A DNA stretch of 42,388 nt. It comes from Spirochaetota bacterium. Its GTDB lineage: Bacteria > Spirochaetota > Spirochaetia > SPDA01 > B32-G16. Where the stretch lies: contig QNBH01000008.1 in assembly GCA_003645645.1 (NCBI GenBank), positions 1 through 42,388 on the forward strand, read 5' to 3'. Positions 12,443-42,388 of the stretch are shown here, one piece after another. Below the pieces are notes generated by a model. It did not search any database, was not told the origin of the DNA, and worked only from the letters and a program-made list of their open reading frames with translations. Each line of letters starts with the position of its first letter. The stretch's first letter is position 1. Made by a program: the position numbers and the translations under genes.

Positions 12443-13564
12443 TTGAGTAAAAAAGTACTTATCCCCTACTTCCTGGCTGGATCGGGTCATTTTGCAATAG
12501 CACAGGCAATCGAGTATTACCTGCGAGAAAGCGGAAAAGATCTTGAAATCAGGTTTCTCGAACCGGGAGAGGAGTTTAAAGACAAGAGACTTAACGACTT
12601 TTTCAAGCAGGCATGGAAACTCATCCTCAAGATGCGCAAGGCACCCAGGGAGATACTTTTTGGTATCGACAAGGCGGTACCTTCCCTATCCTCATTTATA
12701 AACGAGCAATATTTACGTACGGCAATATTCAAGGGTATGGGCTTTCTGGCCGGCTACAGGCCCGATCTGATCATTTCGACTCACTGGGGATGTACCCAAC
12801 TGTTTAACGAGGCAAGAAAAAAGATGGAAATGGATATCCCGCTCTTCTCTGTTTTTACAGAACTTGCGGGCGGTCATAAACTTATAAACTGCGGTGCCGA
12901 CCTCTATTTTGTTATGACCGACGAAGCCTTAGAAGACCTTATGCGATTCGACATTCCGAAAGAGAAAATCAAAAGAGTTAACTTTATAGTACGTCCCCAG
13001 TTCGAGTGCAATAAGTTATCCCGGAAGGAGGCCAGAGACAGGCTCAATCTCCCCGATTCCGCCTTTGTGCTTCTTTTCAGCATGGGCGGAGAGGGGATAG
13101 GTCCTGCGTTTCAGTATATTAACAGGTTCCTGCAAATATTCCCGGAAGGTAAAATGCTTAGCTTAACAGGAAGAAATGAAAAACTCACGAATGAAATTAA
13201 AAAAAAGTATCAGGATGAGGGGATTTCTGTTTTTCCCTATCGCGATGATGTGGAAGTTCTTGTGGCTGCATCGGATGTGCTTGCCGGTAAATGCGGAGGC
13301 AGTTTTTCCACCGAAGCGATAAAAACCAGATCACCTTTTATCATCACCCAGATCGGTGCTCCTAACGAACGGCCGAATATGAAATATATAATAAAACATA
13401 ACTACGGATGGTATACTTCCTCTCCAAGAAAGTTCGCAAGAATACTCGAACAAATCCATTCGGACAGATCCTGTCTGGAATCGGTAAAGCGCAATCTCGA
13501 TAATGTGCCAGAGGAAAACGGTGCTTCAGAAATAGCTTCCTATATTATAAGCATAATCCTATGA
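12443..13564 (+). CDS. MGDG synthase/GT28-like glycosyltransferase
   Basis: YFLAGSGHFAIAQAIEYYL, PDLIISTHWG, LLFSMGGEGIGPA, DVEVLVAASDVLAGKCGGSFSTEAI. TTG start preceded by AGAGGA. Confidence 0.75.
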   Translation: MSKKVLIPYFLAGSGHFAIAQAIEYYLRESGKDLEIRFLEPGEEFKDKRLNDFFKQAWKLILKMRKAPREILFGIDKAVPSLSSFINEQYLRTAIFKGMGFLAGYRPDLIISTHWGCTQLFNEARKKMEMDIPLFSVFTELAGGHKLINCGADLYFVMTDEALEDLMRFDIPKEKIKRVNFIVRPQFECNKLSRKEARDRLNLPDSAFVLLFSMGGEGIGPAFQYINRFLQIFPEGKMLSLTGRNEKLTNEIKKKYQDEGISVFPYRDDVEVLVAASDVLAGKCGGSFSTEAIKTRSPFIITQIGAPNERPNMKYIIKHNYGWYTSSPRKFARILEQIHSDRSCLESVKRNLDNVPEENGASEIASYIISIIL

Positions 13565-31737: not shown

Positions 31738-32967
31738 ATGCTTTCAGATATTGCAAATATACACGAAGGGAACCGTCACCGGATCAAGGACAGAGAGAAG
31801 GCTCTCATATTTCATTCGGTATTTTCCGGCACAGCCTCTACACGCAAGAGCCTGGCCGAGAAACTTACAATAAGACCCACCACCATATCCAGGGTTGTGT
31901 ATGAGCTCCTCGAGGATCGTATTCTCATTGAGGGAGAAAGGAAAAACGTCGGAAGAAAGGGAAGGCCGGAAAATATTCTTCTACCAAACCTGAACAGGTT
32001 TGTCGCCATTGCAATTTATGTAGTTTCAAGGGAAATGAAAGGAGTGATGATAAATCTGGGAGAAGAGATTCTCTCCGAGAGAGCTTTCTATCTGGATGAA
32101 CACAGTGATAATGATAAAATTTTTCAAAGCATCAAAACCATTACCGATTATTTAGCTCCCTGCAAACCAGAAGGTTCCGAGCTTCTCGGTGCAGGAGTCT
32201 CTCTGCCCGGAACCGTAAATACACGAGAGATGAGATGGATATCAGCTGCCCGATGGCCTTCACTCTCCAATCTCTCCCTTGCAAAGCTTCCCCTCTTTAC
32301 AGGAACAGAAGTTTCTCTGCACCGCGGACTTGATGCGGAGCTGGAGTATCTCCTTCTTAAAAGGGGGGGATATCGACAAGGGGGAATTCTGCTGTTTCAC
32401 TGGGGATTCGGTATCGGTTCTGCCTATGCCCATAACGGTACCGTTCTTAAGTCGAATATCGGCAGATTCGGAGAAATCGGGCACTGCAGGGTTAATTATG
32501 CCGAAAATCCCGCCTTGCAGCTTAAAAAATGCAGTTGTGGCTCTTACGGATGTCTGGAAACAGAAGCCGCACTGTGGGCAATTCTGCCCCAGATACGCAG
32601 TTTTTATCCGGATGCACCGGAAGAGGAGGTGGAGTTTGCAAGGTACATAAACAGTGCACAATCAATCAAAAGGTCGATAGAGACCATTCCTCTGTTACAC
32701 CGGGCATTGAGTTTCGTTATTCTGGGTCTCGCCAATATTAACCAGATATTTTTCCCGGATAAAATTATCCTCTACGGGCCTTTTTTCCAAAACAAGGGGC
32801 TTTTCGATTTTTTTCTAAGGTCATTTCTAAAGGCAGTCCCCTCCTATAGCAGGAATACACTGGAAGTGGAACTCTTAAACGAACCCATTCACGGGGAGAT
32901 TTTCGGGAGTACGCACGCCTTTTTCAAGAAAGCCCTTAAAGAACTACTCATAGCCAGATGGGAATGA
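31738..32967 (+). CDS. ROK family transcriptional regulator
   Basis: N-terminal winged HTH (RKSLAEKLTIRPTTISRVVYELLEDRILIEG) plus ROK domain (HWGFGIGSAYAHNG..GRFGEIGHCRVN..CSCGSYGCLET). Confidence 0.9.
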   Translation: MLSDIANIHEGNRHRIKDREKALIFHSVFSGTASTRKSLAEKLTIRPTTISRVVYELLEDRILIEGERKNVGRKGRPENILLPNLNRFVAIAIYVVSREMKGVMINLGEEILSERAFYLDEHSDNDKIFQSIKTITDYLAPCKPEGSELLGAGVSLPGTVNTREMRWISAARWPSLSNLSLAKLPLFTGTEVSLHRGLDAELEYLLLKRGGYRQGGILLFHWGFGIGSAYAHNGTVLKSNIGRFGEIGHCRVNYAENPALQLKKCSCGSYGCLETEAALWAILPQIRSFYPDAPEEEVEFARYINSAQSIKRSIETIPLLHRALSFVILGLANINQIFFPDKIILYGPFFQNKGLFDFFLRSFLKAVPSYSRNTLEVELLNEPIHGEIFGSTHAFFKKALKELLIARWE

Positions 32968-33057
32968 TACTTATCTCAAGTAAGTCTGTTCACAGTCACT
33001 TTTTTCTGCCTAGACTAATCCTCTTAAAAGTCCTCCGATCTGCCGGAGATTGAATAG

Positions 33058-33079
33058 AATTATATCCCGGAATATAATT
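33058..33079 (+). repeat. inverted repeat immediately upstream of the EIIA-DAC start codon
   Basis: AATTATAT-CCCGGA-ATATAATT, perfect 8-bp arms, ending 5 nt before ATG 33085. Confidence 0.5.
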
Positions 33080-33084
33080 ACTCG

Positions 33085-34431
33085 ATGGACATTGTAGAAT
33101 ATATATCTCCCGATCGTATCTTTTTTCTTAAAAACACAAAGAAATTACCGGCAATACGGGAATTGATCCAATCTGCCTGTAAGACTATTCCCAATGTGGA
33201 TCCCGAAGAAGTCTTTCAAATCGTGTGGGAGAGGGAGAAGCAGGTAAGTTCTTGGATAGCAACGGGAATTGCCATTCCCCATGGACGTATTCCCGATTTG
33301 GGAGGATTTTATGTTGCCATTGGAAGAAGCAAGGAAGGGGTGGAATACGAATCTACCGATCAAAATCCTGTCAATCTTATGATTCTGATCCTGGGTGATT
33401 CGGGTGAACCAGACCATCATATCATGTTACTGGCTGAGGTAGCCCGGACCATAAAGATGGAACAGATAAAGGAGATGATTCTCTCCGCGGGTACAGAAAA
33501 TGAAATCTATGAAATAATACTTAACCGTAATCGCCTGATTCGTGAATCCCAGAGAGGGCTGTTAATCGATATATCCGGCAGGCTTCTGTCCCACGCCGTG
33601 AAACTTGCCTCAGAGCTGGATGCAAACGCAATTATACTCTATGTCGACGCCATGGCAGATATAAAACAGATCGCAGAACTTAGATCCCCGATTCCTTTAA
33701 TTCTTATTGCCCAGAGAGAATATCCGGAGTTACGTGAAATTAACACTGCACACAGTTTCTTGAGGATACCTTTCCCTGCCCTGAACCGAACAAACCAGGT
33801 AAGTATGATAATTTTGTTCGCCCTTTCCCAGGGTCTAATCCGTCGTAATGACCGGGTGGTCTGCCTTTTCGGTACTCCCGACCCGGCCGTAATGGATAAC
33901 CTGATGGTTATAGATGTCTCCCGGGAGATCCCCATCTTTCTCCCCGCTCATCCCACAAGCCTTCTGGGTGATGTGAAACCACCGGTACTGGAGAAGGTTC
34001 TTCACCTTGCCACTGCCATTTCTCTGGAAGGAAGAGAAGGCAAGCCAACAGGAGCTTTTTTTGTTCTTGGAGATTATGAAAATGTACGACAGATGAGCCA
34101 TCAGCTAATAATAAACCCTTTTAAAGGATACAAGGATGACGAGAAAAGCATACTCGATCCAAGCCTCGAGGAGACGGTGAAGGAGTTTTCCACACTCGAC
34201 GGTGCCTTTCTCGTAAGGGGGGATGGAGTCATCGAAGCTGCGGGTGCTTACCTGAGGTTTCCGAAGGCAATAGCGGAACTGCCTTCAGGTCTGGGAGCCC
34301 GCCACGCAGCAGCAGCAAATATAACCGCCTATACCAGGGCTCTCTCCGTTGCGGTTTCACAGTCAACAGGCAGAGTAAGCCTTTTTAAATCCGGAAGGTT
34401 GATAGTAAACCTGGATAAGCCCAGGGCTTAA
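33085..34431 (+). CDS. PTS EIIA-2 domain / PK_C-like domain / diadenylate cyclase (DAC) domain fusion
   Basis: EIIA: TGIAIPHGRIPDL phosphorylatable His. Middle: RLLSHAVKLASELDANAIILYVD. DAC: LDGAFLVRGDGVIEAAGAYL...LGARHAAAANITAYTRALSVAVSQSTGRVSLFKSGRLI. Confidence 0.75.
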   Translation: MDIVEYISPDRIFFLKNTKKLPAIRELIQSACKTIPNVDPEEVFQIVWEREKQVSSWIATGIAIPHGRIPDLGGFYVAIGRSKEGVEYESTDQNPVNLMILILGDSGEPDHHIMLLAEVARTIKMEQIKEMILSAGTENEIYEIILNRNRLIRESQRGLLIDISGRLLSHAVKLASELDANAIILYVDAMADIKQIAELRSPIPLILIAQREYPELREINTAHSFLRIPFPALNRTNQVSMIILFALSQGLIRRNDRVVCLFGTPDPAVMDNLMVIDVSREIPIFLPAHPTSLLGDVKPPVLEKVLHLATAISLEGREGKPTGAFFVLGDYENVRQMSHQLIINPFKGYKDDEKSILDPSLEETVKEFSTLDGAFLVRGDGVIEAAGAYLRFPKAIAELPSGLGARHAAAANITAYTRALSVAVSQSTGRVSLFKSGRLIVNLDKPRA

Positions 34432-34964
34432 GCGGATAGGTCGGGGAAATAAACCTCCCCTATGGTAACACATGTAATCTTCCCATCTACGATTGCCTGG
34501 CCTATCATTCTGGCAAAAAAACCATCCCGGTCCAGGCTCTTTGCAATCAGAAGCACCTCTTTATCAGGAAGTAGTGGTTCCATAAAGACAGCCCCTATAA
34601 CCCTGGTAGCCCTGACCGCTACAGGCCTGGCATCATCTTCAAGTACTTCGGTATTTTTGGTGATAAAATATGTGAGACACAACCCCAACTGGCCGATCAT
34701 CTCTATCTGAAATGAACCAGGATATACGGGGTAATCGGGGAAATGCCCTTTAAAAACGGGGTCTTCCTTCCGCATATAGCGCATACCGGTTATCAGCTCT
34801 TCCTCCAGAGAAATACCGGTTATTCTGTCCAGAAAAAGGAGTGGTTCTCTGTGAGGTATTAGCCTCTTTATATCTTCGTTCCGGAGGTCGAGGTTCCGGG
34901 GGAAATTTTCCAGGGGAAGAATTGGTTTCTTTCTGTGTTTTTTAAGAAGTGATTCGTATTCCAT
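34428..34964 (-). CDS. FabZ-like 3-hydroxyacyl-ACP dehydratase (hotdog fold)
   Basis: IPHREPLLFLDRITG ... VFKGHFPDYPVYPGSFQIEMIGQLG: catalytic His and Glu retained. Confidence 0.85.
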   Translation of the reverse strand: MEYESLLKKHRKKPILPLENFPRNLDLRNEDIKRLIPHREPLLFLDRITGISLEEELITGMRYMRKEDPVFKGHFPDYPVYPGSFQIEMIGQLGLCLTYFITKNTEVLEDDARPVAVRATRVIGAVFMEPLLPDKEVLLIAKSLDRDGFFARMIGQAIVDGKITCVTIGEVYFPDLSA

Positions 34965-35127: not shown

Positions 35128-36399
35128 TCAAATTTCAAGAGCCTCGCCTTTTAATCCCCTGGCTATCACATCCTCGATAATGTTTAAGGACCTATCCATC
35201 TCCTCCCTGGTCAACTGGGCCGACACGGAAATCCTGAATCTTCTGGCATTTGCAGGTACTGCAGGAAAGTCTACAGGCTGGAGAAAAAGCCCGCGCTTCT
35301 GAATCTCCGCTGCAAAGTGCATGAGCTTCTCTCCGGAAGAGCCGATTATAATGGGAATTATCTGCGACTCGGTCTCCCCGATGTCCAGATTCATGGCCTG
35401 GATTCCCTTTTTTAGATATGCAGTGTTCTCCCAGAGCCTGTCTCTTAAAGTGGAGTCCCTCGTTGCCACCTCTAAAGCCTTTATCAGCCCACCTACAACC
35501 GGTGGAGAAGGGGCACAGGAGAAATTCCAGGGGGATGAGTATCCTTTAAGATAGCGAATAATCTCTGCATTCGCACATACGAACCCCCCAACCCCTCCAA
35601 AGGACTTGCTGAAAGTACCGAAAGATACTCCTATCTTGCCCTCCAGCCCAAAGTGCTCCGCCACACCTCTTCCGTTTTCGCCGAACATGAGAGTAGAATG
35701 AGCCTCATCTATATAGATAGGAGCCCTGTACTGCTCGCAAACCTCTGCTATTTCGGGTAGCTTTACCAGATCGCCGTCCATGGAGTAAACCCCCTCAATG
35801 GCCACCATGGTTCTGGCTCCCTTACTCTTCTCAAGCATCGAAGCCAGTGATTCCGGTTTGTTGTGCTCGAAGAATCGCATCTTTACCTGAGCCAGAGTAC
35901 CCCCGTCCACAAGACTCTTGTGGCATTTCTCATCCAGAATGAGCACATCACCCTTACGCATAATCCCCTGTATGGCACCCAGGTTTCCGCCAAAACCGGA
36001 GGAGTAGATAAGACAGTCCTCCTTTTGTTTAAACTCCGCCATCATCCTGGTGAGCTTTACATGTAGGTCGTAAGTACCGGATAGCAGCGGGGCACCGGAG
36101 GCGCCAAGCCCGTATTTATCCAGTGCTTCTTTTGCAGCTTGAATGACCTCCGGATGAGAAGATAGCCCCAGGTAGTTGTAGGATGTGAGATTGATGATCT
36201 TCCGCTTTTTGTTATCTATGTTGCTTAAGATTTCGGTTGAGATGCGTGGGGCGGCTAGCAACTGCTGTTCGAAGAAGGTAAAACTGTGCTTTACCCTTGG
36301 ATGATTTATCCACTGCATAAAATCATCGGGAGGTGAGAGTATATCGGGATTATCGTTGTAGAAAAAATCCGCCAGACTGTAGTTTAAAATATCAGACAT
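35128..36399 (-). CDS. alpha-oxoamine synthase family PLP enzyme (KBL/AONS/SPT-like)
   Basis: NLTSYNYLGLSSHPEVIQAAKEALDKYGLGASGAPLLSGTYDLH, IYIDEAHSTLMFGENGRG, GTFSKSFGGVGGF (PLP Lys). Confidence 0.92.
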   Translation of the reverse strand: MSDILNYSLADFFYNDNPDILSPPDDFMQWINHPRVKHSFTFFEQQLLAAPRISTEILSNIDNKKRKIINLTSYNYLGLSSHPEVIQAAKEALDKYGLGASGAPLLSGTYDLHVKLTRMMAEFKQKEDCLIYSSGFGGNLGAIQGIMRKGDVLILDEKCHKSLVDGGTLAQVKMRFFEHNKPESLASMLEKSKGARTMVAIEGVYSMDGDLVKLPEIAEVCEQYRAPIYIDEAHSTLMFGENGRGVAEHFGLEGKIGVSFGTFSKSFGGVGGFVCANAEIIRYLKGYSSPWNFSCAPSPPVVGGLIKALEVATRDSTLRDRLWENTAYLKKGIQAMNLDIGETESQIIPIIIGSSGEKLMHFAAEIQKRGLFLQPVDFPAVPANARRFRISVSAQLTREEMDRSLNIIEDVIARGLKGEALEI

Positions 36400-36631
36400 A
36401 TTCCATAAACTTATCGGCGAGCTCGTCTATATTGTTGATATCCGAAAGCTCCGAACGGGGGACTTTGATGTTCATCTCTCGCATGGAACTGGAAACAACT
36501 TCTATCATATCCAGACTGTTTGCCCCGTAGTCTCTCATTGATTTTTTCGGATCGATTTCTTCTTCGCTTATATCATCGAGATTTTCTACAATGTTTTTCT
36601 TGATTATCTGGATGACTTCCTCTTTTGTCAT
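36392..36631 (-). CDS. acyl carrier protein
   Basis: 79 aa, acidic, DYGANSLDMIEVV phosphopantetheine Ser; overlaps the AOS gene start. Confidence 0.92.
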   Translation of the reverse strand: MTKEEVIQIIKKNIVENLDDISEEEIDPKKSMRDYGANSLDMIEVVSSSMREMNIKVPRSELSDINNIDELADKFMEYV

Positions 36632-36693
36632 TTTTCACTCCTTGCTACTAAAGTTTTATTTTATAATAGCCGGATCACCAATCCGGTATCGGA

Positions 36694-37500
36694 TTATTTC
36701 TTCTTGAATTGTAGATACCTTATCATAGAATTATCCATAAAAGGTAGCCCATAATCAACATTTATTATCTGTCCGTTTACAGCATCCATGAGACCACTGC
36801 AGAGAGCAAGCACCGCCCTTCCACAATCTTCCGGTGAAAGAATCATCTTCTCGGTTACACCCTGATCTTTTAAAAAGTCGAAAAACTCACTGCCAAAAAT
36901 TGCCTCGAAAGATTCGGTTCTTACCATTCCGAACCGAAGCACATTTACCCTGGAGCCTTCCTCAAACAAGTGCACGGAAAGGTATCTGGAAAAAAACTCC
37001 AGAAGAGCCTTTGAGGCAGCCACAAAATCGTAACCCCTGTAAAAATGATCCGGCCCGTTGCTGGATATCCCCACAATATATTTCGGATACTTTCCGAACC
37101 TCTCTTTTATCTTTCTGCTATATTCAACTATGGGCCAGGTACTGTATTCAAGGGTTTTAAAGAGGGATCTCTTTTTATAATCCTCGATTGTTTCGGTTCT
37201 TAATGCAAAACCCACATTGTTTATATAAACGTCAATACTATTCTCGAGCTTACCGATCTCCTCCATAAGAGTATCTGTATCTTCCGATACGGAAGCATCG
37301 GCCTGTATAAGCACCGGCTTCTCCGCTCCTGCCTCCCGGAAAGCGTCGAATAGCTCTTCTGTATCTGCAGAACCCCACTTGTAGGTGATATAAAGCCTGG
37401 CGCCCGCCCGGCCAAACTCCAACGCTGTAGCCAGGCCTATCCCCTTTGTGCCGCCTGTTACAAGAACAACCCTATCCCTGTAATCTATACTAATCGGCAT
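36694..37500 (-). CDS. FabL/FabI-like SDR, candidate enoyl-ACP reductase
   Basis: VLVTGGTKGIGLATALEF; YxxxK replaced by Y-DFVAAS-K (YX6K), the spacing of FabI/FabL-type enoyl reductases. Confidence 0.7.
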   Translation of the reverse strand: MPISIDYRDRVVLVTGGTKGIGLATALEFGRAGARLYITYKWGSADTEELFDAFREAGAEKPVLIQADASVSEDTDTLMEEIGKLENSIDVYINNVGFALRTETIEDYKKRSLFKTLEYSTWPIVEYSRKIKERFGKYPKYIVGISSNGPDHFYRGYDFVAASKALLEFFSRYLSVHLFEEGSRVNVLRFGMVRTESFEAIFGSEFFDFLKDQGVTEKMILSPEDCGRAVLALCSGLMDAVNGQIINVDYGLPFMDNSMIRYLQFKKK

Positions 37501-38239
37501 AAAACTCCTCTATAGTATTTTTTGTCTCCGGAAATCCGAAACTTATTCTGTGCATCATATCTTCCTGAACCCTGGCATCTATTAAAAGCTTTTTCTTCTC
37601 AGCACTCAATACATACTTAAGAAGATAGAGCGATTTTACATTCTTCTCACTAATCTGTAAAGCTATATCCCTGGCTTTCGGAATAACTTCTTTCCTGGGT
37701 AATATATAATTGATATTCGTACCCTTCTCCTCCAGTTCACTCCCCCTGAAACGCTTTCCTGTAAACATCATTTCATTGGCTATAAAGGGACCCATTATAT
37801 ATGGGAGCAGGGTTGTGCATCCCATTCCCGGAGTAAAGCCCATGTTCATAAAAACCGCGCCGTACCTGCTCTCCCTGGCAATAATCACGATGTCGCAACA
37901 CAATGCAAGTACCAGACCACCGCCCACTGCATGTCCCTCGATGGCGGCAATTACCGGGAAGTTGGTGTTAAGAACTCGCTCGGAAAGAAGCAGATCTTTA
38001 ACCACTACCTTCCCATCACATAGATCGAGAAGGCCCTTTTTTTCGGCCCCGCCGCAGAAAACATCTTCCAGCCCTTGAAGTATCATTACTTTGGGTTTGT
38101 GCTTGTTTTCGATTTCATCCATTGCCCGTATAAAATCCTGAATAAAATCGTCGGTAAAAATGTTTCTCCCCTCTCGATCGATCATTTTAAGACAGGCAAT
38201 CCCCGAATGTTCCACCTCTATAGCTATTCTTTTACCCAT
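37490..38239 (-). CDS. enoyl-CoA hydratase family, ECH2/PksI-like (methylglutaconyl-ACP decarboxylase type)
   Basis: AAIEGHAVGGGLVLALCCDIVIIARESRYGAVFMNMGFTPGMGCTTLLP. Confidence 0.8.
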   Translation of the reverse strand: MGKRIAIEVEHSGIACLKMIDREGRNIFTDDFIQDFIRAMDEIENKHKPKVMILQGLEDVFCGGAEKKGLLDLCDGKVVVKDLLLSERVLNTNFPVIAAIEGHAVGGGLVLALCCDIVIIARESRYGAVFMNMGFTPGMGCTTLLPYIMGPFIANEMMFTGKRFRGSELEEKGTNINYILPRKEVIPKARDIALQISEKNVKSLYLLKYVLSAEKKKLLIDARVQEDMMHRISFGFPETKNTIEEFYAD

Positions 38240-38258
38240 ACCATCAACCCAAATTACT

Positions 38259-39068
38259 TTAAACCCCTGTTAAAGGCCTCATCGGCCTGTATTTACCGAA
38301 CCAGGGAGGGAGCTCGCCCCGGTTGAAAGCCGATATGGCTTCTATAATCTCTCTTTTCTTGATGAGATTCAAGAGTTTCTCTATGGCAAGTCTTCTTGCC
38401 TCTCCTACTCCTTTGTTTAAAATTCTTAAGGTAAAATCTTTAGTTTCTGCAAGCGCATGAGGAGAAGAACGAAGAAGAGCCTTTATGATCTGTTTAACCC
38501 CCCTTTCAAAGTTCTCAGTAGAAAACACCTCATCGGCAAGACCTATACGACAGGCCTCCTCCGCAGTTATTTTTTTTGCAGTGAGAACAAGATAACGAGC
38601 CTTCTGAAGGGGTATCCTTATCGAAAGAAGAAAAGGTAGAACATTTGCAGGAATAATACCAAAGAGAACCTCACTGAGCTCGAAGGTTGCTTCCGAAGAG
38701 CAGATTACGATATCACAGGCACTAACAATACCCACCCCTCCTGCCTGTACATCTCCAGCAACAAGAACCATGACCGGCTTTGAGGAGGTTAAAATAGAGA
38801 AGAGAAGATCGCTATAAAGGGTAATCGCCCTCCTTAATCTCTCCGAAGACTCTGCCTCTTCCTGCAGAAGGTTTAAATCCATCCCCCTGCAAAAGATTTT
38901 CCCATTGGAACGAAGAACTATAACTCGTACCTCGGGGTCTTTCATGGACTTCTCCATAGCCAGAGAGAGTTTTTCCAGAAGAGCAGTGTTTAGACGATTG
39001 CCCCTTTCGCTATCCGCCAGCGTGATAACTGCAACCTGGGAATCTATAAATTGTTGGATCAACGGCAA
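38259..39068 (-). CDS. enoyl-CoA hydratase family, ECH1/PksH-like (HMG-ACP dehydratase type)
   Basis: FCRGMDLNLL, VAGDVQAGGVGIVSACDIVICSSEATFELSEVLFGIIPANVLPFL. Confidence 0.8.
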   Translation of the reverse strand: MPLIQQFIDSQVAVITLADSERGNRLNTALLEKLSLAMEKSMKDPEVRVIVLRSNGKIFCRGMDLNLLQEEAESSERLRRAITLYSDLLFSILTSSKPVMVLVAGDVQAGGVGIVSACDIVICSSEATFELSEVLFGIIPANVLPFLLSIRIPLQKARYLVLTAKKITAEEACRIGLADEVFSTENFERGVKQIIKALLRSSPHALAETKDFTLRILNKGVGEARRLAIEKLLNLIKKREIIEAISAFNRGELPPWFGKYRPMRPLTGV

Positions 39069-39071
39069 ACC

Positions 39072-40301
39072 CTAACTCCATTCATAAATGCGGTAAAAGT
39101 TTTTTATTTCTTTCAATACCAGTAATCCCTTTCCTTGATAAAACTCTTTATACCAGTTATTCAGAATCGAAAAATCCGGTTTCACATCCGGCTTCTCTAT
39201 ATAGCTTTCTCTTATATTTTCTATCATCTCATACTCATCTACTGTGACTTCTCTCCTTCTCTGCAAAGCATCGTCAATATGCATGGCCTCTACAGTCTCT
39301 TTTGCCTCGTCGCAGATAACGCCACTGTAATATTCACCGATAGCACCAGAACCGTAAGCGAAAAAGCCAACTCTGTCTCCTGCTTTAACATCATCATTTT
39401 CAACCAGCAAACTGCATAACCCTGCAAAGTTGCTTGCTCCGTAAGTGCTACCAACCTTGCGGGAATAACGAAGGGTGGGGTAGACTTTCCGATTAAAGCT
39501 TTCCTTTATTTCCTGTTTGCTTCTCCTTCTCCACAGGTTGCACAGTGTACGATGAGCCTGAAAGGCCATACCCGCAAATGGGGTGTGATAGATGTTGTAT
39601 TTAAAGTAATTGTCAAAATCTATCTCTTCTCCGGTATTCCGAACATAGTGCGTATATGAGCCTTCAAGCGCATCCAGATAGCTGTACAGACTTACCTCGT
39701 TGTTTCCCACCTCGTGGATAGCGCTTGGTCGAAATGTATCATACACATTGGTAGTCCAGGTACCCTTTTTTTCGATTTCATACTCGACGACTTTCGGTTT
39801 CTCGCTTACCAGCAGAGCTGCAGCAGCTCCTCCCAGCACAAACTCCTCTTTTAAGTTTAAGTGTTTTCTGCTGAAATCACTGGAGATAACCAGAGCCTTT
39901 CTCCCTTTATTTAAACCGGATGCAATCCAGTTTACCGCGGTATCAAGAGCAGCCACTCCGCAGTAACAGGCGTGTTTAACCTCATAATTCCTAACGTTCG
40001 GATTAAGCCCGAGTGCACCATGGATATTTGTGCTTATTGGTTTACCGAAATCAGGAGAACCCTCCGTGCCGACTATCAGCATCCCTATGGCATCCTTATC
40101 TTCATCCTCAAGAATGGGTTTGGCTGCATTGGCGCCCATGGTGATTGTATCTTCATAGGGTGGATTTAGCGAACGAGATTCTATCAAGAAATCATTTACA
40201 ACCATATCGGGGTCTTTACCCCTTGCAACGGCAAGCTTTCTCTGATCAAGAAAAAGGGAGGTGCCGTAAAAATTTATCTTCTCTATACCGACTCTTCTCA
40301 A
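39072..40301 (-). CDS. hydroxymethylglutaryl-CoA/ACP synthase (PksG-like)
   Basis: VGTEGSPDFGKPISTNIHGALGL, YEVKHACYCGVAALDTAV (Cys), YNIYHTPFAGMAFQAHR (His), YGSGAIGEYYSG. Confidence 0.9.
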   Translation of the reverse strand: MRRVGIEKINFYGTSLFLDQRKLAVARGKDPDMVVNDFLIESRSLNPPYEDTITMGANAAKPILEDEDKDAIGMLIVGTEGSPDFGKPISTNIHGALGLNPNVRNYEVKHACYCGVAALDTAVNWIASGLNKGRKALVISSDFSRKHLNLKEEFVLGGAAAALLVSEKPKVVEYEIEKKGTWTTNVYDTFRPSAIHEVGNNEVSLYSYLDALEGSYTHYVRNTGEEIDFDNYFKYNIYHTPFAGMAFQAHRTLCNLWRRRSKQEIKESFNRKVYPTLRYSRKVGSTYGASNFAGLCSLLVENDDVKAGDRVGFFAYGSGAIGEYYSGVICDEAKETVEAMHIDDALQRRREVTVDEYEMIENIRESYIEKPDVKPDFSILNNWYKEFYQGKGLLVLKEIKNFYRIYEWS

Positions 40302-40316
40302 AACAACCTCCTCAAT

Positions 40317-41057
40317 CTATGGTATATAGGTAAGTCCGCCGGATACATGTATGACCTCACCGTTTATGAAACTTGCATCCTCGGTAGTAAGATAGTAAAC
40401 CATAGCCGCTATCTCCTCAGCCTTTCCTATTCTTTTCATGGGGCAGTATTCTACCCAAATTTTTTTCAGCTTGTCAGAGAGGTAATTCGCTGTCATATCG
40501 GTTTCTACATACCCCACGACTACAACGTTGCAGGTAATCCCCTTTGCCCCATACTCCCGTGCAAGGGTCTTTGTCAAACCCAGAAGACCCGCCTTGCTTG
40601 CTGCATAGTTGGCCTGCCCGCTTGCTCCCCCTTGTGCCAAAGAAGATATATTGATAATTCTCCCCATTTTATTGGAGAGAAAATGGAGGAGGAAACTGCG
40701 ACAAACGAAAAAAGGACCCGATAGATTGGTATCTATCACATCCTTCCATTCTTCATTGCTCATCAGGGCAGCAGCATTGTTTCTCACAACTGCCGCATTG
40801 TTAACTACAACATGAATATTTTCGAACGCCTCTATTGCCCCTTCTGCAACACTTTCTATTTCGGCTACATTCTTCAGATCCATTCGGTATGCCTTGACAT
40901 TGGCTTTAGAGTCTATCTTCTTACAAAGGTTCAAGGTCTCATCTGCTGCTTCTTTCTTGCTCGAATATGTAAAGGCACACCCATATCCTTCCTCCACCAT
41001 TTTGAGTACAATTGCACGTCCAATCCCCCTGGAGCCTCCCGTAACAAATACATTCAT
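40317..41057 (-). CDS. FabG-like 3-oxoacyl-ACP reductase
   Basis: NVFVTGGSRGIGRAIVLKM, VVNNAAVVRNN, IINISSLAQGGASGQANYAASKAGL. Confidence 0.92.
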   Translation of the reverse strand: MNVFVTGGSRGIGRAIVLKMVEEGYGCAFTYSSKKEAADETLNLCKKIDSKANVKAYRMDLKNVAEIESVAEGAIEAFENIHVVVNNAAVVRNNAAALMSNEEWKDVIDTNLSGPFFVCRSFLLHFLSNKMGRIINISSLAQGGASGQANYAASKAGLLGLTKTLAREYGAKGITCNVVVVGYVETDMTANYLSDKLKKIWVEYCPMKRIGKAEEIAAMVYYLTTEDASFINGEVIHVSGGLTYIP

Positions 41058-41060
41058 TGG

Positions 41061-42344
41061 TTATCCCTCATACCGCCTTATGAGACTACAACAGTTTATC
41101 CCTCCGAAACCGAAGGAGTTTTTAAGCATCAAGTTTATCCCGTGTTCGGTGACCCTATTCGGACAAATATCAAGATCCACTTCCGGATCGAGATTATCTA
41201 TATTGGTAGTTGGGTGAAGTTTGCCGTACTTCATCTGGAGCAACCCCCCTATGGTTTCGACTATAGGAGATGCCCAGCATGTATGCCCCAACATGGACTT
41301 GGGAGCATTGAGCTTTATTTTGTAGGCATGATCTCCAAAAGTCTCTTTTATAGCCCTGATCTCCTGTATGTCGCCCACCTTTGTCCCGGTGGCGTGGCAG
41401 TTTACATAATCCACATCTTCGGGCTTAAGACCTGTTACCCTAAATAATTCCCTCATAACCTTTGCCTGCTTGGCCGCTCCCGGCTGGGGCAGATGGCAGG
41501 CATTGGAGTTTGCACTGACTCCGAGAACTTCACCGTAGATCCGTGCATTTCTCTTTAATGCAGAATCCAGTTCTTCTAAAATTAATGTTCCTGTTCCGTG
41601 GGAGTAGACAAACCCACATCGGGCTTGATCGAAAGGCCGTGATGCCTTTTCGGGTTCACTCTGATATTCTGGTTTGGCCACTACTGCATTTATGATCACC
41701 GATGCCTGAATATCTGCAGCAGAGACATCAAAGAGAGCACCTGTTATAATCGACCTTTCACACTCTCCCCACTGTATATCCCGCATACCTTCCCGGAGAG
41801 CCAGGTTCCCGCTTGCACAGGCTCCGCCGATTGTAAAAGTAGGACCTTCCAGCTTAAGAACCTCGGTAATAAGGGCAGGCACATTTGGATCAATAGCCTC
41901 TACCCCGCATAAAGGGTCTATAAACTCAGGCTCTTCCATAAATTGCTTTCCATTGCGAAATATATAGTTGGAGTTAAGGTTATGCCCTGCAACAATAACA
42001 CTGGTTCTATCGGGATCTACATCCTTTCCCAGTAAGCCCGCATCCCTGTACGCATCCATGGTACACAAAATTGATAACCTGGCGGAAAATGTGGTGGTAC
42101 GGAAAAGTTTTTTTATCTTCTTAAATTGCCCATCGGTAAAATAACTTTTAAAGTTCTCCAGTTTTCCGTTCCAGTCGTAATCTCCAAGATCGCCTCCGAT
42201 CTTGCACTCTATATTTGTAAGATCCAGAGATTCCCACACCTTTATCCCCGATTTTCCATCCATGAGATTTTTATAATATGTATCCAGATCGTCGCCCAGA
42301 GGATTAATGGTACCCATTCCGGTAATAACTACTCTTCTTTTCAT
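41061..42344 (-). CDS. beta-ketoacyl-ACP synthase
   Basis: FTIGGACASGNLALREG (Cys), VNCHATGTKVGD (His), NAPKSMLGHTCWASPIVETIGG (Lys/His); ATG 42344 preferred over TTG 42380. Confidence 0.92.
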   Translation of the reverse strand: MKRRVVITGMGTINPLGDDLDTYYKNLMDGKSGIKVWESLDLTNIECKIGGDLGDYDWNGKLENFKSYFTDGQFKKIKKLFRTTTFSARLSILCTMDAYRDAGLLGKDVDPDRTSVIVAGHNLNSNYIFRNGKQFMEEPEFIDPLCGVEAIDPNVPALITEVLKLEGPTFTIGGACASGNLALREGMRDIQWGECERSIITGALFDVSAADIQASVIINAVVAKPEYQSEPEKASRPFDQARCGFVYSHGTGTLILEELDSALKRNARIYGEVLGVSANSNACHLPQPGAAKQAKVMRELFRVTGLKPEDVDYVNCHATGTKVGDIQEIRAIKETFGDHAYKIKLNAPKSMLGHTCWASPIVETIGGLLQMKYGKLHPTTNIDNLDPEVDLDICPNRVTEHGINLMLKNSFGFGGINCCSLIRRYEG

Positions 42345-42388
42345 GAGGCATAACTTACCTTTTTTAAAGAAGCTTATCAAGTATAGGC

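Follow-up and report, generated by a model that had tools for sequence, protein, structure and literature searches.

Fusion of a PTS EIIA domain to a DacZ-type diadenylate cyclase module in Spirochaetota and other bacterial phyla

The window analysed here, a stretch of 42,388 nucleotides from a Spirochaetota bacterium, contains a gene for a 448-residue protein, here termed EIIA-DacZ, in which a PTS EIIA domain, a pyruvate-kinase-C-like (PK_C-like) domain and a diadenylate cyclase (DAC) domain follow one another. The gene is preceded by a perfect inverted repeat and, further upstream, by a gene for a ROK-family transcriptional regulator (Table 1).

Table 1. Features of the EIIA-DacZ locus in window coordinates; row counts refer to a conservation alignment of 110 rows, a few of which are one locus fetched twice.
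Feature	Position	Strand	Evidence and remarks
ROK-family transcriptional regulator	31738..32967	+	PF00480, E 5.3e-14; Mlc/NagC-like; ends 117 bp before the EIIA-DacZ gene
Perfect inverted repeat AATTATAT-N6-ATATAATT	33058..33079	.	8-bp arms, 22 bp; 5 bp before the ATG; sole exact match in the window
EIIA-DacZ gene	33085..34431	+	448 aa; ATG to TAA; ORF call and full-length homologues
PTS EIIA (fructose/Ntr type) domain, residues 6-147	33100..33525	+	PF00359 PTS_EIIA_2, E 1.8e-25, 90.1 bits
R50-E51, EIIA active site	33232..33237	+	Invariant in 110/110 rows
H66, predicted phospho-accepting histidine	33280..33282	+	Aligned with the EIIA-Ntr PHG motif; H in 103/110 rows
H112, second EIIA active-site histidine	33418..33420	+	Aligned to the 1a6j H; H in 56/110 rows
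PK_C-like DacZ_P domain, residues 167-281	33583..33927	+	PF21755, E 1.7e-15, 57.2 bits
DAC domain, residues 313-438	34021..34398	+	PF02457, E 6.4e-21, 75 bits
DGA motif, residues 372-374	34198..34206	+	D372 and G373 invariant; A in 108/110 rows
GARH motif, residues 404-407	34294..34305	+	G404, R406 and H407 invariant in 110/110 rows
S425-Q426-S427-T428, equivalent of the CdaA SEET motif	34357..34368	+	Position 426: E 56, S 33, Q 18, other 3 of 110

The three-part fusion had been proposed in a first-pass annotation from the bare sequence, and the domain scan and structural modelling it suggested as checks both bear it out. Within the single uninterrupted reading frame, each domain scores above its curated Pfam cut-off (27 bits for PTS_EIIA_2, 27.4 for DacZ_P and 27 for DAC, the last against an observed 75). 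The EIIA domain thus combines a PF00359 score above the gathering threshold with a predicted phospho-accepting histidine, H66, in the signature GIAIPHG, and does not reach the NCBIfam subfamily cut-offs of TIGR00848 and TIGR01419. The pyruvate-kinase-C-like fold anticipated for the central segment is recovered as DacZ_P, although the Pfam PK_C model itself, with 24 bits, falls short of its cut-off (28). This segment lies directly N-terminal to a DAC domain with DGA and GxRH motifs, the arrangement seen in DacZ/CdaZ, and the anticipated DAC hallmarks are all present (DGA; GARHAAA, residues 404-410; VSQSTGRVSLF, residues 424-434). The NCBIfam model for haloarchaeal DacZ, NF041371, matches residues 179-444 (E 1.3e-35) at 123.1 bits, short of its equivalog cut-off of 430. 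In an AlphaFold model (mean pLDDT 84), residues 1-149 align with EIIA-Ntr 1a6j (Z 23.4, rmsd 1.6 over 148), residues 161-284 with residues 348-472 of the pyruvate kinase C-domain 5wrp_A (Z 15.5), and residues from about 297 to 446 with CdaA DAC structures (2fb5, 8c4n; Z about 14-15). The placement of the modelled domains relative to one another is unsure, since the pTM is 0.53.

A survey of the architecture across genomes, likewise suggested at first pass, recovered the same three-domain order in about 100 homologues. Full-length, colinear homologues with up to 52% identity occur in many families of the same class, as found in a search of 394 genomes, and an alignment scan of GTDB genomes returned at least 425 relatives. 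Among the best 80 of these, which were retained, colinear homologues belong to Spirochaetota, Verrucomicrobiota (Opitutales), Kiritimatiellota and Fibrobacterota (Chitinispirillia/Chitinivibrionales), with relatives also carried by single bins of Myxococcota, Planctomycetota and Hydrogenedentota. Identity to the 448-residue query spans 30-52%; scans with a single sequence, of genome as well as viral contigs, gave no matches, the relatives being detected by the alignment scan alone. About 100 distinct colinear homologues rule out a chimera or frameshift artefact, and the three-domain architecture is real and far above chance. A FastTree phylogeny of 97 EIIA-DacZ proteins and one haloarchaeal DacZ, computed with a long-branch warning, groups the window protein with two proteins of the same class (52% identity) and one from a myxobacterial bin (49%). 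No conserved operon recurs across phyla; neighbours recur within lineages only, and some clustered ORFs beside homologues look like antisense artefacts.

In the account that we consider fairly probable, EIIA-DacZ is a soluble diadenylate cyclase of the DacZ type, and the fused EIIA domain would set its output through phosphotransfer from HPr. The residues on which such gating would depend are under evident constraint: R50 and E51 are invariant and H66 is nearly so, the other rows of its column having Gln (6) or Tyr (1). H112 is less widely kept, being replaced by Tyr in the Opitutales clade. The counterparts of H66 and H112 in the EIIA-Ntr/EIIA-Mtl family are the phosphorylated histidine and its active-site partner. 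Phosphorylation of H66 by HPr is predicted from these active-site residues together with the presence of HPr and EI, and the constrained site supports gating of the putative cyclase by phosphotransfer.

The exceptions in the H66 column bear on a different possibility, that EIIA is a non-phosphorylated docking or dimerisation scaffold and that the cyclase answers a binding partner or a ligand of the PK_C-like domain instead of phosphotransfer. Six Fibrobacterota proteins of one clade (L053, L056, L057, L061, L068 and L049) have Gln at this position and one Verrucomicrobiota protein has Tyr, all of them keeping the DAC motifs, and one of the H66Q proteins, L061, is apparently the sole DAC of its genome (G606). 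With Gln or Tyr in seven homologues, phosphorylation is dispensable in some lineages. The loss of the histidine is nevertheless confined to a few tips, with four changes on the tree, and the fact that members of the same clade keep it suggests that the H66Q cases are local losses. A scaffold, moreover, would not need an active site in which H66 is retained in the great majority of rows and R50 and E51 in all, and we judge the scaffold explanation unlikely. The L053 genome also holds a second fusion copy (L076), which retains the histidine.

The cyclase module raises a comparable question at the motif equivalent to the SEET of CdaA, which is said to coordinate a cation (PMC12974146). S425 is Ser in all 109 rows that have the position, and the adjoining Q426 aligns with the first Glu of SEET. 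This Gln, shared by the clade of the window protein in place of the usual Glu of SEET/SEST, is, as judged from the alignment, an unusual residue for the predicted catalytic site, most homologues having Glu or Ser, and is a better flag than the residue to which attention had first been drawn. That residue is an Ala replacing the second Arg of the RHR motif; the substitution is there as described, although it does not amount to a defect, since members of the family have A, T, V, E, R or S there and a haloarchaeal (Haladaptatus) DacZ has His. A reading of RHA as inactive is thereby ruled out.

Q426 would fit a very unlikely alternative in which the DAC domain of the window clade has lost or altered its cyclase activity and serves as a nucleotide sensor controlling EIIA, c-di-AMP being made by CdaA; consistent with it, the second DAC of the window genome is a canonical CdaA, encoded 5' of a CdaR-like gene. 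The same Gln is found, however, in a stand-alone DacZ of the same phylum (L004), and D372, G373, R406, H407 and S425 are all kept in the window protein. Opitutales proteins with Ser426 are, in addition, the only DACs found in their genomes, so that Glu at this position is probably not essential.

The DAC complement of other genomes also argues for cyclase activity. Within the class, 21 of the 22 genomes with the fusion have a second, stronger DAC match, and one (G473) has the fusion alone. Outside it, 12 of 15 homologue-bearing genomes have DAC frames of fusion size only (one frame in ten genomes, two in the remaining two), the other three having a CdaA-type protein in addition. Proteins of fusion size are the sole DACs in most of the Opitutales and Chitinispirillia genomes tested, an absence of other DACs that is provisional, the genomes being largely drafts. 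Because a lone retained DAC is likely to work, the fusion proteins likely work as cyclases, and the lone-DAC genomes thus make c-di-AMP synthesis by EIIA-DacZ likely. A 488-aa protein of a myxobacterial bin (L188:779-2245) looks like a CdaA fused to its YbbR/CdaR partner; the same bin also has CdaA and EIIA-DacZ.

A phosphorelay is available in the genomes that carry the fusion. Of the 22 fusion-bearing genomes of the class, all have EI and HPr kinase and 21 have HPr, with PTS_EIIC above the cut-off in 5 and PTS_IIB in 6. The window genome (G000) has EI and an hpf-hprK-HPr cluster, the HPr showing the sites GIHARPA and KSIMGI; searched for the PTS_IIB and PTS_EIIC families, it gave no PTS_IIB and a sub-threshold match to PTS_EIIC. 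Co-occurrence with HPr was rejected as proof of a PTS link, since 113 of 118 genomes of the class have HPr; at this base rate it is permissive, showing that a relay is available and not that the relay is tied to the fusion. The PTS of the window genome looks regulatory, permease parts being undetected in the families searched, and such a role has been put forward for the PTS of Brucella, which has no permease (PMC2937029). No sugar flux is implied, since the window genome and most relatives are without detected permease parts in the families searched, and the link to "sugar/nitrogen" signalling put forward at first pass proved too specific: what is present is EI, HPr and HPr kinase. The other EIIA found in the window genome is likewise regulatory, an HTH_17-EIIA fusion (L193:1676-2443, G000:C12) that adjoins a cation antiporter with a CBS-like C-terminus, and relatives have Na+/H+ exchangers with a C-terminal EIIA (L191:1388-3556, by Pfam; L192:91-2022, by reading of the sequence). 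A second HPr-like gene (L195:1350-1637, G000:C119) lies directly 5' of fabD- and fabG-like genes, a possible link between the PTS and fatty-acid synthesis.

Transcriptional control may be added at this locus by the ROK gene and the inverted repeat. The repeat, a candidate operator by its pattern, overlaps the -10 of a promoter-like site at 33050-33078, and a leaderless mRNA is conceivable because this -10 lies so near the start codon. A weak second match to the repeat, with three mismatches and not above chance, occurs at 13382-13403. The ROK regulator is a possible partner of the EIIA-DacZ gene, and a sugar-specific circuit, in which the two genes form one carbohydrate-responsive unit with its operator at 33058-33079, would be compatible with phosphotransfer. 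Such a circuit would account for the placement of the ROK gene, upstream on the same strand, and for the perfect repeat over the promoter-like -10. No ROK-like gene was recognised, however, beside the few close relatives whose neighbourhoods were read by eye, and the operator is a pattern in the sequence; we hold the circuit to be decidedly unlikely. On its other side the EIIA-DacZ gene adjoins a minus-strand cluster (35128-42380, with 34428-34964) encoding a KS (PRK07103-like), an HMG-CoA-synthase-like protein, two ECH proteins, SDRs, a BioF/Kbl-type PLP acyltransferase and a FabZ-like protein. One of the ECH proteins scores above the PRK07110 'polyketide synthase' cut-off, and the cluster resembles a polyketide beta-branching cassette.

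Starting from the observed architecture, the conservation of both active sites and the presence of the relay, we infer phosphorylation of H66, cyclase activity and their coupling in the following form. EI would autophosphorylate from PEP and hand the phosphate to HPr, from which it would pass to H66 in EIIA. Depending on its charge, H66 would make EIIA pack differently on the PK_C-like/DAC part, or stand at a different distance from it, and this would affect how two DAC domains meet face to face, as they must for two ATP molecules to be condensed into c-di-AMP. A small metabolite is probably a further ligand of the PK_C-like domain. EIIA would report on the PEP/energy state, because the phosphate would arrive without a known sugar, EI, HPr and HPr kinase being present and EIIB and EIIC undetected in the families searched. 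Of the two forms, we slightly favour the dephospho one as the one that acts, by analogy with PtsN, whose unphosphorylated form is reported to act on K+ transport (PMC11808508).

Each part of EIIA-DacZ has known counterparts. Euryarchaeal DacZ/CdaZ (DacY) likewise has a PK_C-like domain followed by a DAC with DGA and GxRH; DacZ, to which the c-di-AMP of Haloferax volcanii is attributed, is described without an EIIA domain, unlike the protein analysed here (PMC6741144). The EIIA of the PTS-Ntr (PtsN) and fructose EIIA have in common with EIIA-DacZ the fold, the phospho-His PHG motif and the active-site R, E and H, and differ in that EIIA-DacZ has this domain fused to a cyclase and scoring below their subfamily cut-offs. 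EIIA-Na+/H+ exchangers and HTH-EIIA proteins, which occur in these organisms or in relatives of theirs, also place an EIIA module on a regulated output; for them it is ion transport or, it is presumed, binding to DNA, and for EIIA-DacZ a second messenger. CdaA and DisA have the DAC fold and the DGA and RH motifs; CdaA, however, has N-terminal membrane helices and HDGA where EIIA-DacZ has an N-terminal EIIA and LDGA (L371), and DisA continues after the DAC with a linker and DNA-binding domains, whereas EIIA-DacZ ends 10 residues past it. DacZ_P is already a Pfam domain. We found no description of an EIIA-DAC fusion in the literature searched, although it may have been listed earlier in the Galperin 2023 survey of DAC architectures.

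A regulatory role of the PK_C-like domain of DacZ has been suggested (PMC6741144), and the EIIA-DacZ family offers a directly testable input to that activity. Cephaloticoccus capnophilus, in which EIIA-DacZ is seemingly the sole DAC, is a natural test case for the family. PTS-Ntr/PtsN has been tied to potassium homeostasis (PMC11808508, PMC9239096, PMC3665714), as is c-di-AMP by a separate route (PMC7900238), and a cyclase carrying a PTS acceptor domain would unite these two links in one molecule. On the broader proposition our confidence is evenly balanced: the transport-free relay (EI, HPr and HPr kinase) of spirochaetes, Opitutales and chitinispirilla would count c-di-AMP synthesis among its outputs, a single protein reading the PEP/energy state into a K+/osmotic messenger. 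In cells bearing EIIA-DacZ, energy or nutrient status may thus feed directly into a signal for ion balance.
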